DNA from: a virus
IMG/VR virus record: IMGVR_UViG_3300032245_001746
Coordinates: 62,001 to 126,000 of that record
Length of the DNA: 64,000 nt
Direction: 5' to 3' (one strand)
Below the pieces are notes generated by a model, which did no database searches, was not told where the DNA came from, and was given only the letters and a program-made list of their open reading frames with translations. The position numbers and the translations under genes are program-made. Shown piece after piece: positions 19,971 to 49,646 of the stretch (the stretch's first letter is position 1; each line of letters starts with the position of its first letter).

Positions 19971-20273
19971 ATGGCTCTTACTCAAAAATTATTATTTACT
20001 CAAGATTATTCTGAATATCCAATTACTTTTAATTATTTAAGTAACGAAATTGCAAGAATAGACAGAGAAGGTATCTTTCACTTCTGCGTAGAACCTTCTG
20101 ATGAAAACACAAAGAAGTTTGTAGACTTATTGCAGAATTTGTTCAATCGAAAAATTACTGGTTTGAACGTTGTAGAAAAAAAATCCAAAAACTTGTTTAC
20201 AAACACTGACAACAACACGTATAGTTCTGATGACAATTCTGATGTTGTAGAAGAATTTGATCTTCTAAAATAA
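19971..20273 (+). CDS. Small acidic hypothetical protein
   Basis: A 100-residue protein starting MALTQKLLFTQDYSEYPITF. It is acidic at the C-terminus (SSDDNSDVVEEFDLLK) and follows the helical protein closely with an AAAGG ribosome-binding site. Base use is slightly less AT-rich than its neighbour. No motif identifies it. It lies immediately upstream of the promoter for the tRNA array leader. Confidence 0.65.
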   Translation: MALTQKLLFTQDYSEYPITFNYLSNEIARIDREGIFHFCVEPSDENTKKFVDLLQNLFNRKITGLNVVEKKSKNLFTNTDNNTYSSDDNSDVVEEFDLLK

Positions 20274-20287
20274 TTTTCAAAATTTTT

Positions 20288-20317
20288 TTGAAAAAAAACA
20301 ATCAACTACCATATAAT
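20288..20317 (+). promoter_or_regulatory. Sigma-70-type promoter for the tRNA leader
   Basis: TTGAAA (20288-20293) and a perfect TATAAT (20312-20317) with 18-base spacing lie just after the preceding gene's stop. Transcription would begin near 20324, about 20 bases before the leader start codon. Confidence 0.7.
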
Positions 20318-20342
20318 AATTAAACTTAAAAGGAAATTTAAA

Positions 20343-20423
20343 ATGTCATATTTATTTAGTTCATATTTGTATAGTTCATCCTCGCTCTTTATGAGCGGAA
20401 GGACTAGTCTTGCTGTATGCTAA
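20343..20423 (+). CDS. 26-codon leader peptide rich in Ser/Tyr/Leu/Phe (candidate attenuator)
   Basis: A complete mini-ORF with an AAGGA ribosome-binding site eight bases upstream. The peptide starts MSYLFSSYLYSSSSLF: every residue 2-16 is Ser, Tyr, Leu or Phe, and 18 of 26 overall are. The tRNA genes immediately downstream carry exactly those amino acids. The codons cover the array's anticodons: TCA, TCC, TCG, AGT, AGC (Ser), TAT (Tyr), TTT (Phe), TTA, TTG, CTC and CTT (Leu). A terminator begins about 22 bases after the stop. This is the architecture of amino-acid-operon attenuation leaders, in which ribosome stalling at key codons prevents terminator formation. The layout is direct observation; the mechanism is inference. 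Confidence 0.72.
   Translation: MSYLFSSYLYSSSSLFMSGRTSLAVC
20379..20403 (+). promoter_or_regulatory. Hairpin inside the leader ORF
   Basis: TCCT-CGCTC and GAGCG-AGGA pair around a TTTAT loop (a two-base GA bulge in the right arm), covering codons 13-20 of the leader. A translating ribosome would melt it; a ribosome stalled upstream would let it form. It is one of the alternative structures expected in an attenuator. Confidence 0.5.
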
Positions 20424-20457
20424 GTAAATGAGGAAATAGGAATAAAAACCTCGGCAT
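20417..20457 (+). promoter_or_regulatory. Candidate antiterminator pairing
   Basis: ATGC (20417-20420) can pair with GCAT (20454-20457), and GAGG (20430-20433) with CCTC (20449-20452). Both use the left arm of the terminator. A ribosome at the leader stop codon (20421-20423) would cover the upstream segments and favour termination. The pairing is short and weak, so this is only a model. Confidence 0.35.
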
Positions 20458-20479
20458 CGCAAGATGCCGAGGTTTTTTT
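20445..20479 (+). terminator. Strong Rho-independent terminator between the leader and the tRNA array
   Basis: AACCTCGGCATC (20447-20458) pairs perfectly with GATGCCGAGGTT (20463-20474) around a GCAA tetraloop and runs into a T-run. It is one of the most GC-rich stems in the window. It lies between the leader ORF and the first tRNA-like gene, where an attenuator terminator would be. Confidence 0.92.
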
Positions 20480-20485
20480 GTTTTA

Positions 20486-20569
20486 TAGGTTAAAGAGAAT
20501 CTGGGAATTCTGACGGAAAATAAACCGTTGTCTTTTGACTGTTGTGGTTCGAATCCACATGCCTATATT
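20486..20569 (+). tRNA. tRNA-like gene with a long variable arm, anticodon loop abnormal
   Basis: The acceptor pairs ATAGGTT with TGCCTAT (one mismatch, one wobble). The T arm TGTGG-TTCGAAT-CCACA is perfect, and the variable arm GTC-TTTT-GAC marks a class II tRNA. The anticodon stem GACGG/CCGTT encloses an eight-base loop, AAAATAAA, with no U33, so the anticodon is unclear (TAA, Leu, is the closest reading). It may be a decayed or unusual tRNA. Confidence 0.5.
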
Positions 20570-20600
20570 TGTTCTTTTAAAATTTAAAATATATTTATTA

Positions 20601-20683
20601 TGCGTTGATATGGCAAGTGGATAAAGCCGGGTGACTGTAAATCACTTCTTAATTGTTCGGGGGTTCGAATCCCTCTCAACGCA
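20601..20683 (+). tRNA. tRNA-Tyr (GTA)
   Basis: Acceptor TGCGTTG/CAACGCA is perfect. The anticodon arm has stem GTGA/TCAC and loop CTGTAAA, giving anticodon GTA. The variable region is long, as in bacterial Tyr tRNA, and the T loop is TTCGAAT. No CCA is encoded. Confidence 0.88.
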
Positions 20684-20689
20684 CTTTAT

Positions 20690-20776
20690 AGATGGTTTTA
20701 CTATTGGCTAGGTTAACTTAGTTGGAAACTAAGAAGGCGTTAATTCGCTTTACAAGTTCGATTCTTGTACCATCTG
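20690..20776 (+). tRNA. tRNA-Ser (GGA)
   Basis: Acceptor AGATGGT/ACCATCT. Anticodon arm CTTAG-TTGGAAA-CTAAG gives GGA. A long variable arm is typical of Ser, and the T arm ACAAG-TTCGATT-CTTGT is perfect. Reads UCC/UCU. Confidence 0.9.
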
Positions 20777-20784
20777 TTTTATTT

Positions 20785-20866
20785 AGAGTCGCTTCAATGT
20801 GGGTATTGGAGAAGTCTGTAAAACTTCTGCCCTATGGGCAAAACAGTTCGATTCTGTACGACTCTA
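20785..20866 (+). tRNA. tRNA-Tyr (GTA), second copy
   Basis: Acceptor AGAGTCG/CGACTCT. Anticodon arm GAAGT-CTGTAAA-ACTTC gives GTA. The variable arm GCCC-TAT-GGGC is long. The sequence is quite different from the Tyr gene at 20601, so it is not a recent duplicate. Confidence 0.88.
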
Positions 20867-20880
20867 CTTGTTGTTATTTT

Positions 20881-20970
20881 AGATGGGTAGACCTATTGGT
20901 AGGTCAGATTATTTGCTAAATAATTAGGGCGGGTCAAACCGTCTTGCAAGTTCGATTCTTGTCCCATCTG
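20881..20970 (+). tRNA. tRNA-Ser (GCT)
   Basis: Acceptor AGATGGG/CCCATCT. Anticodon arm ATTAT-TTGCTAA-ATAAT gives GCT. The long variable arm is GC-rich, and the T arm is GCAAG-TTCGATT-CTTGT. Reads AGU/AGC. Confidence 0.9.
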
Positions 20971-20990
20971 CTTGGTTTTTTATTTTATAT

Positions 20991-21081
20991 AGATTGGTAA
21001 CTGGACAGGCGTGCCAGCATTGTTTTGAAAACAATTGGAGCCATTGAGAAATGGCTTGGGATTCGATTTCTCACCTCTCTG
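20991..21081 (+). tRNA. tRNA-Ser (TGA), imperfect acceptor stem
   Basis: Anticodon arm ATTGT-TTTGAAA-ACAAT gives TGA. The variable arm is long (GCCATTGAGAAATGGC) and the T arm is TGGGA-TTCGATT-TCTCA. The acceptor AGATTGG/CCTCTCT has two central mismatches, so editing, weak function or decay is possible. Confidence 0.75.
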
Positions 21082-21100
21082 CTTTGTTTATTTTATAATA

Positions 21101-21178
21101 TGGACGGTGAGCTAGTGTGGTCATTTAAGCGGAAATTTGAAAGATTTCAGAACTCAGTTCGATTCTGAGACCGTCCAC
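21101..21178 (+). tRNA. tRNA-Phe (GAA)
   Basis: Acceptor TGGACGG/CCGTCCA. Anticodon arm GAAAT-TTGAAAG-ATTTC gives GAA. The variable loop is short and the T arm is CTCAG-TTCGATT-CTGAG. Last tRNA before the HNH endonuclease gene. Confidence 0.88.
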
Positions 21179-21226
21179 TTTTAAAGAATTTATAAAATTC
21201 GAACATTATTTTTCTTAAAATTAAAT

Positions 21227-21250
21227 ACGCTATTACTGTAATAGTGTATG
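21227..21250 (+). promoter_or_regulatory. Hairpin abutting the HNH endonuclease start codon
   Basis: TAC-CTATTA and TAATAG-GTA flank a CTG loop and end at the start codon; no Shine-Dalgarno is visible. Hairpins that block translation starts are known for homing endonuclease genes of T4-like phages. Confidence 0.5.
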
Positions 21251-21964
21251 AGCAAAATAATTTATACAAAAGAAGTGTTAGAAAAAGCAGTAAAAGAAGC
21301 AAGTTACTTAACTGAAGTATTTAAAATACTTAATGCAAGACAAGGAGGAAATACTTATCAAAGAATAAAAATATTAATTAAAGAGTATAAAATAGACACA
21401 TCTCATTTTTTGAATGGAAAATATAAAGGATTTTTAAAATCTGGAATTGCTAATAAAAAATGTCATTTAAAAATCCTTGTAAATGATAAATCTAGAAATA
21501 GAAGAGAAAGTAGTTATTTATTAAAACGTGCATTAATAGAAAGTGGTCGAATTCATGTTTGTGAATGCTGTGGTTTGAAACCTGAATGGAATGGTAAAGA
21601 ATTAACACTTCAAGTTGATCATATAGATGGAAATTGGTTAGATAATAGAAAAGAAAATTTAAGATTTTTATGTCCTAATTGTCATACTCAAACAAAAACA
21701 TTTGGAAATCAAAAGGAACAAAAAAAATGTGAAAATTGTAACATGAAAATAGGAAGAAAATCTCGATGGTGTAAGCGTTGTTTTCCATTATTTGTTTTTA
21801 TAAATAAAAGAAAAGTAAAAGACAGACCAGAATTACATGTATTAAACCAAGAAGTAAAAGAACTTGGGTATGTAGGAACTGGTAGAAAATATGGCGTAAG
21901 TGATAATGCTATTAAAAAATGGATTAAAACAGAAACTAAAAAATTAAATATTACAAATAAATAG
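21248..21964 (+). CDS. HNH homing endonuclease inside the tRNA array
   Basis: A 238-residue HNH nuclease. VCECCGLKPEWNGKELTLQV is followed by the catalytic DHIDG (residues about 124-128), and LRFLCPNCHTQTK completes the beta-beta-alpha metal finger with two C-x-x-C pairs. A second zinc pair (KCENCN ... WCKRC) follows. The C-terminus NQEVKELGYVGTGRKYGVSD, then NAIKKWIK, resembles a helix-turn-helix DNA-binding end. The N-terminus TKEVLEKAVKEASYLTEVFK is also a helix-turn-helix-like repeat. Free-standing endonucleases often invade phage tRNA clusters. It splits the array into six or seven upstream and nine downstream tRNAs. Confidence 0.88.
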   Translation: MSKIIYTKEVLEKAVKEASYLTEVFKILNARQGGNTYQRIKILIKEYKIDTSHFLNGKYKGFLKSGIANKKCHLKILVNDKSRNRRESSYLLKRALIESGRIHVCECCGLKPEWNGKELTLQVDHIDGNWLDNRKENLRFLCPNCHTQTKTFGNQKEQKKCENCNMKIGRKSRWCKRCFPLFVFINKRKVKDRPELHVLNQEVKELGYVGTGRKYGVSDNAIKKWIKTETKKLNITNK

Positions 21965-21982
21965 TAAATATAGTGTTTATAT

Positions 21983-22065
21983 GTTCGCGTGATGAAATTT
22001 GGGATACATGATGGTCTAAGAAGCCATTGCCGTAAGGCTTGCAGGTTTGATTTTTGTCGCGAACA
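21983..22065 (+). tRNA. tRNA-Leu (AAG)
   Basis: Acceptor GTTCGCG/CGCGAAC with discriminator A. Anticodon arm ATGGT-CTAAGAA-GCCAT gives AAG, which is unusual in bacteria because A34 normally needs deamination to inosine. The variable arm GCCGTAAGGC is long. The T arm (GCAGG-TTTGATT-TTTGT) relies on several G-T pairs. Confidence 0.78.
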
Positions 22066-22079
22066 CTTGTTGTTTTTAT

Positions 22080-22153
22080 GCTGTAGTACGCAAATAGGCA
22101 AAGCGGCAATACTTAAAATATTGTGATTCTGTCGTTCGACTCCGATCTACAGT
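22080..22153 (+). tRNA. tRNA-Leu-like (TAA), degenerate T arm
   Basis: Acceptor CTGTAG/CTACAG and anticodon arm CAATA-CTTAAAA-TATTG (anticodon TAA) are good. The expected T stem around TTCGACT does not pair; GTCG-TT-CGAC folds on itself instead. The variable region is short. Possibly a pseudogene or an odd structure. Confidence 0.55.
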
Positions 22154-22168
22154 ACTTGTTATTTTTAT

Positions 22169-22242
22169 GCTCATGTGATGCAATTGGCAGACATTTCTCG
22201 TTTAAACCGAGGATCTTACAAGTTCAAGTCTTGTCATGAGCA
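22169..22242 (+). tRNA. tRNA-Leu (TAA), short variable loop
   Basis: Acceptor GCTCATG/CATGAGC with discriminator A. D arm ATG...CAT. Anticodon arm TCTCG-TTTAAAC-CGAGG gives TAA. The variable loop is only five bases (ATCTT) where Leu tRNAs normally have a long arm. T arm ACAAG-TTCAAGT-CTTGT. Confidence 0.82.
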
Positions 22243-22251
22243 CTTTTATAT

Positions 22252-22329
22252 GCTTACGTGATGCAATTTGGTAGACATCTTTCGCTTAAAACGAAAGTTT
22301 TTTTGTAGGTTCGAGTCCTATCGTAAGCA
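22252..22329 (+). tRNA. tRNA-Leu (TAA), short T-rich variable loop
   Basis: Acceptor GCTTACG/CGTAAGC with discriminator A. Anticodon arm TTTCG-CTTAAAA-CGAAA gives TAA. The variable loop is GTTTTTTT, without a stem. T arm GTAGG-TTCGAGT-CCTAT. Similar D arm to the Leu gene at 22169. Confidence 0.82.
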
Positions 22330-22333
22330 CTAT

Positions 22334-22406
22334 CGGTCAATAACAATGATGGTTCATGTAGTCGTCTGAAGAACGACAAATCCCAGATCGTAACTGGGTT
22401 GACCGG
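22334..22406 (+). tRNA. tRNA-Phe-like (GAA) with atypical T loop
   Basis: Acceptor CGGTCAA/TTGACCG is perfect. D stem ACA/TGT, and anticodon arm GTCGT-CTGAAGA-ACGAC gives GAA. T stem CCCAG/CTGGG is perfect but the loop reads ATCGTAA instead of TTCGAAT-like. It begins four bases after the previous tRNA. Confidence 0.68.
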
Positions 22407-22415
22407 CTTTTATAT

Positions 22416-22499
22416 GTCCATGTGGTGAAATTTGGCAGCCACGCCAGCCTAAGAAACTGGTTCCTTAATGGAGTGTAGGTTCAAATCCTATCATGGACA
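22416..22499 (+). tRNA. tRNA-Leu (AAG), second copy
   Basis: Acceptor GTCCATG/CATGGAC with discriminator A. Loop CTAAGAA gives anticodon AAG; the closing pair of the stem is mismatched. The variable arm TCC-TTAAT-GGA is long, and the T arm is GTAGG-TTCAAAT-CCTAT. Confidence 0.78.
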
Positions 22500-22513
22500 C
22501 TTGTTATTTTTAT

Positions 22514-22596
22514 GCCCATGTGATTGAAATTGGTAAACTTGGAAGTTTTAGAAACTTTCGCCTTCGGGCTTGCAGGTTCAACCCCTGTCGTGGGCA
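22514..22596 (+). tRNA. tRNA-Leu (TAG)
   Basis: Acceptor GCCCATG/CGTGGGC with one G-T pair and discriminator A. Anticodon arm GAAGT-TTTAGAA-ACTTT gives TAG. The variable arm GCC-TTC-GGGC is long, and the T arm is GCAGG-TTCAACC-CCTGT. Confidence 0.87.
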
Positions 22597-22616
22597 CTTA
22601 TTATATTATTAAAAAT

Positions 22617-22690
22617 GGCTCAGTAGGCAACGGAAGACCACTTTTACTCAAAATAAAAGATGATTGTGAGTTCGACTCTCACCTGAGTTA
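22617..22690 (+). tRNA. tRNA-Leu (CAA), short variable loop
   Basis: Acceptor GGCTCAG/CTGAGTT with two G-T pairs. Anticodon stem TTTTA/TAAAA with loop CTCAAAA gives CAA. The variable loop is about seven bases without a stem. T arm GTGAG-TTCGACT-CTCAC. Confidence 0.78.
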
Positions 22691-22693
22691 CTT

Positions 22694-22789
22694 ATATACA
22701 ATTATACTGTGAACAAATAGCAAATCTTACTAGGTTATTCTAGTGCTCATCAAACGTTGAAATAAATAATCTAAGTTATAATTGTATAT
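22694..22789 (+). ncRNA. Cloverleaf-like small RNA candidate between tRNA genes
   Basis: A 13-bp perfect closing stem (ATATACAATTATA, 22694-22706, with 22777-22789) encloses ACTAG-GTTATT-CTAGT and TCAA-ACG-TTGA hairpins. That makes a three-branched structure of tRNA-like size sitting exactly where another tRNA would fit. There is no recognisable T loop or anticodon arm, so it is not called a tRNA. Confidence 0.45.
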
Positions 22790-22794
22790 TTTTT

Positions 22795-22879
22795 GGATTA
22801 GATTGAAAGCGGCTATTCTACTAAATTTCGAAAATTTAGAACTATTTTTAGTTTGCGAGTTCGACTCTTGCCTAATCCG
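22795..22879 (+). tRNA. tRNA-Ser (CGA)
   Basis: Acceptor GGATTAG/CTAATCC with discriminator G. Anticodon arm TAAAT-TTCGAAA-ATTTA gives CGA. The variable arm ACTATTTTTAGT is long, and the T arm is GCGAG-TTCGACT-CTTGC. Last tRNA of the array. Confidence 0.88.
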
Positions 22880-22913
22880 TTTTTAAAATTTAAGTTATTA
22901 TAATAAATATATT

Positions 22914-23078
22914 ATGAAAAATTTTAAACAATGGTTACAAGAAAACAATAGATGTTGGACTGGATACGAGCCAGTTCCAGGCAAAAAAGCTTTTTCAAAA
23001 GGATCATGTAGAAAAAAGAAGATCCAAAAAGAGAACTCATTTAATGAATGGTTAAAAAATAAATCATCACTTTTCTAA
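22914..23078 (+). CDS. Small conserved-type protein (CW-GYEPVPG...KGSC) with two F-x-x-W-L motifs
   Basis: A 54-residue protein. It starts MKNFKQWLQENNRCW, has the central RCWTGYEPVPGKKAFSKGSC motif that I associate with a small protein family widespread in T4-like phages, and ends FNEWLKNKSSLF. The F-x-x-W-L-x-E/K pattern thus occurs at both ends; the N-terminal copy resembles the T4 capsid-targeting sequence. No Shine-Dalgarno is present; the start follows AATAAATATATT. The function of the family is unknown to me. Confidence 0.75.
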   Translation: MKNFKQWLQENNRCWTGYEPVPGKKAFSKGSCRKKKIQKENSFNEWLKNKSSLF

Positions 23079-48062: not shown

Positions 48063-49646
48063 ATGGCTAAGTTTATTTTTGTTGTTGGTGGTGTTTATTC
48101 CGGTACAGGCAAAGGCGTTGCTTCTGCATCTATTGGGTTTTTATTAAAAGAACGTAATTTAAAAGTTCAGATGTTGAAATTAGATCCTTATCTTAATGTA
48201 AATGCTGGAATTATACGCCCATCAGATCATGGAGAAGTTTATGTTTGTGACGATGGGTCAGAAATTGATTTAGATGCAGGTACTTATTATAGAATCGCAA
48301 ATGAAGAAACATCAAAAGATAGCATCTGTACATCTGGAACACTTTATAAAGAATTAATTTTCGATCAAGAAAATGGAAAATATCTTGGTCAAACATTACA
48401 AATAACTCCACACATGACAGAAAAAATAACTTCAAAACTTTTAAATGTAGAAAAAGATAATGATGTTGTAATTGTAGAAATTGGTGGCACAGTAGGCGAT
48501 AGTGAATCATTTGCTTTTTTTGAAACTATAAGACAATTTAAACAAAATAAAGATTGTATGATAATAATGGTAGCACCCATTATATGGGCAGACACTATTA
48601 AAGAATTTAAAACAAAACCATTACAAAATTCCGTTAAAGAATTACAAAAATGTGGTCTTTTTCCAGACATTCTCTTGTGTAGAAGTAATTTTAAACTTCC
48701 TAATTCTATTTTGGAAAAAACATCATCTATGACTGGCATACCTCTTGAAATGGTATTTAGTTGTCCTGATGTTTCTTCTTTATATGATGTTCCAATAGAA
48801 TTTTATAATTTACATATTGATGATATTATTGTAGATAGATTTCGACTTAAAAGGAATGTTTGTAAAATACATTCTTATAAAGAATTAATTGATAAAAGCA
48901 AGAAATTTGAAAAATATACAAATATTGCAGTGGTTTGTAAGTATGATAATTCTGAAGCTTATTTATCTTTAAAAGAAGCTATTCATCATGCTGCCATTCA
49001 TAATGATTGTAAAGCAAATATTTATTTTATAAATTCTGATTTTTTTGAAAATAAGAATCAATTACAAGAATTAAATAAATATAATGCTGTAATTGTACCT
49101 GGAGGTTTTGATTATCGTGGAGTAGAAGGTAAAATTAATGCAATTAAGCATTGTAGAGAAAATAAAATTCCTTTTTTAGGAATATGTTTAGGTTTACAAT
49201 GTGCTGTAATAGAATTTGCGAGAAACATTTGTGGTATTAAAGATGCTAATAGTTTAGAATTTGAAAAAGATTGTAAAAATCCTGTTATTAATTATGTTCT
49301 TGGACAAAAAGATATTCAACAAATGTCAGGAACAATGAGATTGGGAGCTTATAATTGTAAATTACAGACAAACTCTTTAGCTAATATTTCTTATAATAAT
49401 ACTCTAATTAGTGAAAGACACAGACATAGATATGAGGTAAATTCTGAATACAAACCTATTTTAGAAAAAAATGGATTTATAGTTTCTGGAGTCAATCCAG
49501 AAACTGGATTAATTGAAATAATGGAATTGGATACAAAAATACATCCATTTTTTATAGGAATTCAAGCACATCCAGAATTTAAGTCTAGATTATTAAATCC
49601 ATCTCCTTTATTTGTTTCTTTAATAAAAGAAAGTTTGAAAAAATGA
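48063..49646 (+). CDS. pyrG: CTP synthase
   Basis: Converts UTP to CTP using glutamine. The synthase domain (1-265) opens FIFVVGGVYSGTGKGVASAS, a variant of the usual GG-x-x-SS-x-GKG loop. GEVYVCDDGSEIDLDAGTYY and VEIGGTVGDSES are family signatures. The glutamine amidotransferase domain (about 290-527) has the catalytic Cys in FLGICLGLQCAV and the His/Glu in QAHPEF. At 527 residues it is full-length and appears active. Rare in phages; here it follows nrdB by 11 bases, so it raises the CTP/dCTP supply together with ribonucleotide reductase. Confidence 0.95.
   Translation: MAKFIFVVGGVYSGTGKGVASASIGFLLKERNLKVQMLKLDPYLNVNAGIIRPSDHGEVYVCDDGSEIDLDAGTYYRIANEETSKDSICTSGTLYKELIFDQENGKYLGQTLQITPHMTEKITSKLLNVEKDNDVVIVEIGGTVGDSESFAFFETIRQFKQNKDCMIIMVAPIIWADTIKEFKTKPLQNSVKELQKCGLFPDILLCRSNFKLPNSILEKTSSMTGIPLEMVFSCPDVSSLYDVPIEFYNLHIDDIIVDRFRLKRNVCKIHSYKELIDKSKKFEKYTNIAVVCKYDNSEAYLSLKEAIHHAAIHNDCKANIYFINSDFFENKNQLQELNKYNAVIVPGGFDYRGVEGKINAIKHCRENKIPFLGICLGLQCAVIEFARNICGIKDANSLEFEKDCKNPVINYVLGQKDIQQMSGTMRLGAYNCKLQTNSLANISYNNTLISERHRHRYEVNSEYKPILEKNGFIVSGVNPETGLIEIMELDTKIHPFFIGIQAHPEFKSRLLNPSPLFVSLIKESLKK

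Follow-up and report, generated by a model that had tools for sequence, protein, structure and literature searches.

A phage tRNA operon for serine, tyrosine, leucine and phenylalanine is very probably preceded by a trp-type ribosome-mediated transcription attenuator, a reading for which there is no experiment so far. The operon lies in a stretch of 64,000 nucleotides, here called the window, which belongs to a 319,857-bp IMG/VR virus. An attenuator had been suggested in an earlier note made from the window alone, and it is now supported by related phages, the composition of the leader peptides, a match across 48 leader-array pairs and RNA folding. Beyond what the note could see, the window is one instance of an arrangement that recurs across large phages. 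Among the explanations considered, attenuation alone accounts for where the RNA switch lies as well as for what the peptides are made of.

Leader, terminator and tRNA array of the window

The anatomy of the region at 20288-20480, like the conservation, the leader-array match and the switch position described below, was derived from sequence and comprises the following elements.

20288..20317, + strand: sigma-70-like promoter TTGAAA-18-TATAAT, 11/12 consensus positions, top match within 20200-22950
20330..20334, + strand: ribosome-binding site AAGGA, 8 nt 5' of the start codon, from sequence
20343..20423, + strand: leader ORF of 26 codons, MSYLFSSYLYSSSSLFMSGRTSLAVC and then a stop; residues 2-16 are Ser, Tyr, Leu or Phe only
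20346..20390, + strand: control codons (codons 2-16), which are region 1, the 5' side of the long 1:2 hairpin in the fold
20411..20433, + strand: region 2, with TGC, ATGC and GAGG; its partner is region 3 (antiterminator) or region 1
20444..20458, + strand: region 3, the terminator 5' arm AAAAACCTCGGCATC in the fold
20463..20481, + strand: region 4, the terminator 3' arm and T tail in the fold

The promoter, ribosome-binding site, 26-codon leader of Ser, Tyr, Leu and Phe residues and stable terminator of the earlier note were thus all borne out. The terminator has a 15-bp stem (20444-20477) and a T tail at -25 kcal/mol, and the leader fold of the window scored z = -2.78 in comparison with shuffles. 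We rejected a chance ORF, as no other start in the phage precedes 15/15 S/Y/L/F codons; the leader of the window is the single case among 33,640 ATG, GTG or TTG codons on both strands, and therefore its composition is not due to chance. In long ORFs of the window, TCC, TCG and AGC make up 1.8, 3.8 and 4.5% of Ser codons and CTC makes up 0.6% of Leu codons, so the earlier remark that TCC, TCG and CTC are rare holds. The hairpin stem containing these rare codons may account for part of their use, and a deliberate choice is only weakly supported. The CTA codon is absent from the leader, though the Leu(TAG) tRNA of the array reads CTA.

The array starts directly after the terminator and ends at 22880, and every identified tRNA is specific for Tyr, Ser, Phe or Leu.

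20485..20567, + strand: tRNA-like element whose anticodon arm is aberrant, no clear identity, 18.5-18.7 bits, below gathering score
20602..20684, + strand: tRNA-Tyr(GTA), ARAGORN
20689..20777, + strand: tRNA-Ser(GGA), ARAGORN
20785..20867, + strand: second tRNA-Tyr(GTA), body unlike the first, ARAGORN
20881..20971, + strand: tRNA-Ser(GCT), ARAGORN
20989..21081, + strand: probable tRNA-Ser(TGA) with an imperfect acceptor stem, by eye; not found by ARAGORN or Rfam
21102..21178, + strand: tRNA-Phe(GAA), ARAGORN
21248..21964, + strand: HNH endonuclease gene within the array, phrog_10822, E 1.5e-50
21983..22065, + strand: tRNA-Leu, anticodon AAG by manual reading, RF00005, 32.7 bits
22080..22155, + strand: tRNA-Leu(TAA), short variable arm, ARAGORN
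22169..22243, + strand: tRNA-Leu(TAA), short variable arm, ARAGORN
22252..22330, + strand: tRNA-Leu(TAA), short variable arm, ARAGORN
22334..22407, + strand: tRNA-Phe(GAA), second form, ARAGORN
22416..22500, + strand: tRNA-Leu(AAG), ARAGORN
22514..22597, + strand: tRNA-Leu(TAG), ARAGORN
22617..22691, + strand: tRNA-Leu(CAA), short variable arm, ARAGORN
22794..22880, + strand: tRNA-Ser(CGA), ARAGORN

ARAGORN identified 13 tRNAs, all for Tyr, Ser, Phe or Leu; together with the Leu(AAG) and the Ser(TGA)-like gene read by eye and the weak tRNA-like element, they agree with the earlier estimate of about 16 genes. When the array region was searched with BLAST, only the HNH gene was matched in other phages. 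The other tRNAs of this phage are few (three Lys, one Arg, one Met and two Leu calls) and all on the minus strand.

In the proposed attenuator, RNA polymerase would start just 3' of the 20288-20317 promoter, with a ribosome translating the leader. With charged Ser-, Tyr-, Leu- and Phe-tRNAs in ample supply, the ribosome would reach the stop codon and cover region 2, upon which region 3 would pair with region 4 and transcription would end before the tRNA genes. If any one of the four charged tRNAs were short, the ribosome is predicted to stall in codons 2-16; region 2 would then pair with region 3, the terminator could not form and the array would be transcribed. The operon would respond to any of the four amino acids, as an OR gate, and by negative feedback would provide more tRNA exactly when the codons cannot be read. 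The translation of the leader, the stalling, the termination and the read-through in the cell are inferred, as is the trigger.

Two features of the tRNA genes themselves were also observed. Many Leu tRNAs of 74-79 nt without a long variable arm occur in 7/9 S/L/Y/F arrays of the clade (window 22080-22330 and 22617-22691; L137, L138, L139, L143, L145, L151), often adjoining a normal Leu tRNA of 82-88 nt for the same codon, and these short-arm forms could escape an enzyme that recognizes the long variable arm. Arrays also contain at least two Tyr(GTA) genes and often at least two for Phe(GAA), whose bodies are quite unlike one another (window 20602-20867, 21102-21178 and 22334-22407; L136, L137, L138, L151).

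Matching leaders on tRNA arrays of other phages

The relatives of the window's phage were found with its SpoVR-like protein, which is 57% identical to that of LR756511 (595 kb) and linked 80 IMG/VR loci to the phage, whereas searches with the adjacent 225-aa protein, a topoisomerase and a 1112-aa protein did not find close relatives. The SpoVR-like gene (L006 16769-18367) marks the clade; the phage also carries a tmRNA with the tag GETVRLAA (L006 9678-10043) and a CTP synthase gene (window 48063-49646).

In nine phages of the clade, the window's and eight others, 9/9 S/L/Y/F arrays have a leader and a hairpin terminator. In LR756511, the Ser/Leu/Tyr tRNAs form a separate array after a promoter (TTGACA-TAAAGT), a ribosome-binding site, the GTG-started leader MHTFSASLRLSSYSLSSLLYSNVRRGT and a terminator, and seven further phages have the same order with the leaders MGIFSSSLSFLFLSLYLSDRWRCA, MHALLSYSLSSLSSLFSEPGETAAVA, MHTFSVNLLSSYYSLSLSLSSAGRWTE, MFNLSVSLLSSLSSLLYSNAGRGTE, MNVLSSVLFSLSYSSLSSGPEEGV, MNKFSYQLSSLSSSLLFSNDRGGCVR and MNVFLLSLSSLSGLFYSSGSGCIL. 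These S/L/Y/F leaders have purine-rich ribosome-binding sites, start with ATG or GTG and fold as a long hairpin. While GC ranges from 26 to 57% across the fetched stretches of the nine phages, the leader composition and the hairpin plan are nonetheless kept. The search of related phages that the earlier note had proposed thus found the order of leader, terminator and tRNA array preserved, and the homologous leaders do not have the random composition that would have refuted it, as Ser, Leu, Tyr and Phe make up 138/220 residues in the nine, though their sequences have diverged. Their Phe and Tyr counts are only loosely related to how many Phe and Tyr genes the arrays have.

Dedicated and main arrays differ in content. 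In LR756511, G004 and G007, Ser/Leu/Tyr/Phe tRNAs account for 12/12, 14/14 and 12/12 genes of the dedicated arrays and for 3/49, 1/42 and 0/46 of the main arrays, respectively, and therefore the tRNA repertoire is partitioned by amino acid in the phage genome. The main-array leaders have Ser, Leu or Tyr at only 12/251 residues and sample up to 16 amino acids. Within the clade of the window, MAVLIQRHGKQWCRCHKQWNNQITYLMS precedes Asn/Lys/Ile/His/Gln/Arg/Cys tRNAs, MLTCRFTFVERTAGTTEAVAPAAVRPEGMSAVDTTV precedes Pro/Gly/Asp/Thr/Glu/Val/Ala tRNAs and MTIIQAQERRAIAAVRRAMAVRAMQVAT precedes Arg/Val/Ala/Gln/Gly tRNAs.

The distant huge phages LR745206, LR756502 and LR756504 have up to seven separate arrays with a leader on each; their promoters are of the Bacteroidetes type (TAnnTTTG) and their leaders lack an SD sequence, as in Bacteroidetes. 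In this set, KKQQYKQYQPQYK precedes Tyr/Gln/Lys tRNAs, FWHFHF precedes His/Phe tRNAs, IAIVEIAVIGGAEEGV precedes Glu/Ala/Ile/Val/Gly tRNAs and SYESYYEE precedes Glu/Tyr tRNAs, with LSLCLSLSLSL before Leu/Ser/Cys tRNAs in LR756504 and QQQQQQQ before Gln tRNAs in LR756502. Matching leaders also occur in four phages that have been cultured, on hosts unrelated to each other. CSWFEFDTDFTDVFYCEYTFYSLYTF in Bacillus phage G, annotated as gp86 without function, precedes Cys/Asp/Phe/Tyr/Glu/Thr/Ser tRNAs; Salicola phage SCTP-2 has four leaders, among them QYQLQQLPLVLYPY before Leu/Pro/Tyr/Gln tRNAs; Agrobacterium phage Atu_ph07 has one; and RNNVRQIRVRQFN precedes Val/Ile/Gln/Asn/Arg tRNAs in Caulobacter phage CcrColossus, whose terminator is already in the annotation but whose leader is not. 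No such leader was found in the regions searched of T4, T5, 121Q, RaK2 and pEa_SNUABM_50, and therefore the arrangement is not universal.

Several other observations concern these arrays. Genes for Met(CAT) tRNAs are often located immediately 5' of the leader, outside the attenuator (L161 5135, L166 7905, L159 9953, L167 7111 and 7188, L184 5582 and 5659, L170 2371), which would make sense if sensing requires translation of the leader to start. Several of these phages have tRNAs with the anticodons CTA, TTA or TCA, which are possible stop-codon suppressors (L166 7265 and 7352, L160 5589, L162 12389, L218 5845). The LR756504 leaders L179 and L182, on different arrays, have the C-terminal MGVYxL in common; this stretch is the arm of the antiterminator, and it looks as though the control run could be swapped like a cassette.

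So that composition would not decide which ORF was taken, each leader region received the score of whichever candidate ORF fitted best, and we did this with permuted arrays just as with the array that belongs to the leader. The mean z was 3.74 over 36 pairs (0.33 +/- 0.29 permuted) and 3.72 over 48 pairs (0.36 +/- 0.24 permuted), with 48/48 pairs positive and 0/20,000 permutations as high in either set. Many leaders come from related phages and are not independent; a set of 25 representatives, which lessens this although some members are still related, gave a mean z of 3.73 vs 0.26 permuted (0/20,000). Nine S/L/Y/F leaders had originally been picked by their composition, and without them the match persists (mean z 3.63 vs 0.43). 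Leader composition thus follows array content over the 48 pairs at 0/20,000 permutations, as in the co-variation between leaders and arrays that the earlier note had asked about. In a blind prediction, a DNA pattern of the Gln leader led to three new contigs, and 3/3 have a terminator after the leader and 2-3 Gln tRNAs right behind it.

Some leaders of cultured phages are annotated as hypothetical genes (gp86 of phage G; 335 and others of SCTP-2), in line with a functional small protein or an arrest peptide. However, only composition is conserved and tracks the array, while sequence and length are not conserved; we rejected a functional peptide on this basis and consider it highly improbable.

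Folding and the position of the switch

In the fold of the window leader, region 1 pairs with region 2 around the stop codon and regions 3 and 4 form the terminator. A ribosome that sits on the stop codon hides region 2, whose pairings with region 3 are GAGG with CCTC, ATGC with GCAT and TGC with GCA. This antiterminator is weak, at -8.7 vs -25 kcal/mol for the terminator. Considering that region 3 was paired 82% of the time without any ribosome in an equilibrium model, the off state must depend on a ribosome occupying the stop codon.

When a ribosome was modelled as stalled at codon 9, upstream pairing of the terminator 5' arm extended over 9.4 nt vs 6.2 nt in shuffles (combined p 2e-6; the L136 terminator was misassigned in this test). 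We also placed the ribosome on every codon in turn and computed the probability that the terminator 5' arm was already paired upstream. The antiterminator probability was greater at the control codons than elsewhere in 29/29 leaders (Wilcoxon p 1.9e-9), and a circular-shift control of the 29 gave p 3.7e-6. The effect was small in several S/L/Y/F leaders, where differences were 0.02-0.12 and the automatic arm detection is imperfect. In 3/4 SCTP-2 leaders, the probability was 0.9-1.0 throughout the control run and about 0 a few codons later, because the next codons (e.g. GGA GGG AAG GGC) are the antiterminator arm, which is complementary to the terminator. The probability likewise falls as soon as the control run is past in CcrColossus, LR756504, LR756502 and others. 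In the clade of the window, main-array leaders appear to rely on a longer hairpin relay 3' of the stop codon, for example with the pairings TTTCCTGAACCG / CGGTTCAGGGAA, GGTTCAGG / CCTGAACC and CCTGAAC / GTTTAGG in G004. MAFFT and RNAalifold on seven S/L/Y/F leaders recovered the inner hairpin and the terminator only; this approach is limited because the arms shift, and therefore per-sequence folding and shuffles were used. Folding with a stalled ribosome, as had been proposed, yielded the expected antiterminator, weak in the window itself. Of what is expected from an attenuator, a leader ORF with start signals, matching control codons and an intrinsic terminator before the first gene are present, and an exclusive antiterminator is met in silico only, with 29/29 leaders in the right direction.

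The terminator might merely insulate the array from upstream transcription, with the ORF as a by-product of the hairpin sequence. The S/L/Y/F leaders do form their long hairpin, and hairpin stems constrain codons. Nevertheless, a hairpin can neither make a peptide list the amino acids of its array in 48 pairs with different sets nor put an antiterminator switch just where the control run ends, and the promoter is upstream of the leader. Based on the 48-pair match, the switch position and the promoter location, insulation alone was rejected and appears scarcely credible to us.

Known attenuators, the natural signal and phage tRNAs

The phage leaders resemble trpL, hisL, leuL and pheL in having a short ORF with codons of the regulated amino acid, exclusive 1:2, 2:3 and 3:4 hairpins and an intrinsic terminator before the genes. 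They differ in that they control tRNA genes and not enzymes, are carried by phages and cover at least four amino acids at once. In Rfam, the window leader stayed below the gathering score (His_leader 30.4 of 49 bits, Phe_leader 24.8 of 55). In the pheM-pheST attenuator, phenylalanyl-tRNA synthetase is controlled through a leader peptide that responds to charged tRNA; as in the phage leader, the controlled gene restores charged tRNA, while its product is a synthetase and that of the phage operon is the tRNAs themselves. The arrays of T4 and T5 are like that of the window in having homing endonuclease genes in between but unlike it in that no array-matching leader ORF and terminator were found.

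T-box riboswitches control tRNA-dependent termination by direct binding of uncharged tRNA, without a translated leader, and they likewise act on tRNA-related genes. A T-box or another RNA sensor of uncharged tRNA would share this control with the phage system. Yet the phage leader is inferred to be translated, Rfam gave no RF00230 match at E up to 1, and a T-box has one specifier codon vs the many in-frame codons after the start codon here. The lack of a match and the multi-codon leader led us to reject this possibility, which we regard as practically excluded.

An attenuator could also respond by nature to amino-acid shortage or generally slow translation instead of tRNA loss. Stalling reports an absent charged tRNA whatever the cause, and main-array leaders with up to 16 amino acids would react to any slowing. 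On the other hand, added tRNA does not cure a lack of amino acids, and the grouping of tRNAs by amino acid under leaders of their own, with Gln by itself as one such group, suggests specific rather than global sensing. We hold such a signal to be possible but rather unlikely. The inferred trigger of the attenuator is probably the loss of host tRNAs in infection, by host shut-off or a tRNA-cleaving defense, because extra tRNA helps against lost tRNAs and not against amino-acid lack. Host shut-off and tRNA-cleaving defense nucleases are both candidate causes, which the data do not tell apart.

While the class of mechanism is known, the tRNA-gene target, the phage carrier, the OR gate over many amino acids and the leader-array match appear to be new. 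An earlier description was not found in the open-access literature as far as it was available, including the huge-phage paper PMC7162821.

The findings bear on the old question of why phages carry tRNAs and when these are expressed, as the leaders show, group by group, which tRNAs would be sensed. Ideas of tRNA depletion, such as host shut-off, anticodon nucleases and codon-usage compensation, are turned into predictions of which operon responds to which depletion, and these are testable now since Bacillus phage G, CcrColossus, Atu_ph07 and SCTP-2 are in culture. A function is also offered for small hypothetical genes such as gp86 of phage G, and the leaders would constitute a family of natural multi-amino-acid sensors. 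Whether large phages of unrelated hosts keep their tRNAs in amino-acid groups, each under an attenuator with a peptide that matches the group, in order to sense which tRNAs are lost, for example after cleavage by a defense, and to replace those alone, seems to us an even call. If true, it would be an induced counter-defense circuit that needs no phage regulatory protein. Taken all together, unrelated giant phages carry their own matching leaders on dozens of tRNA clusters, which points to an undescribed way of sensing and replacing missing tRNAs.
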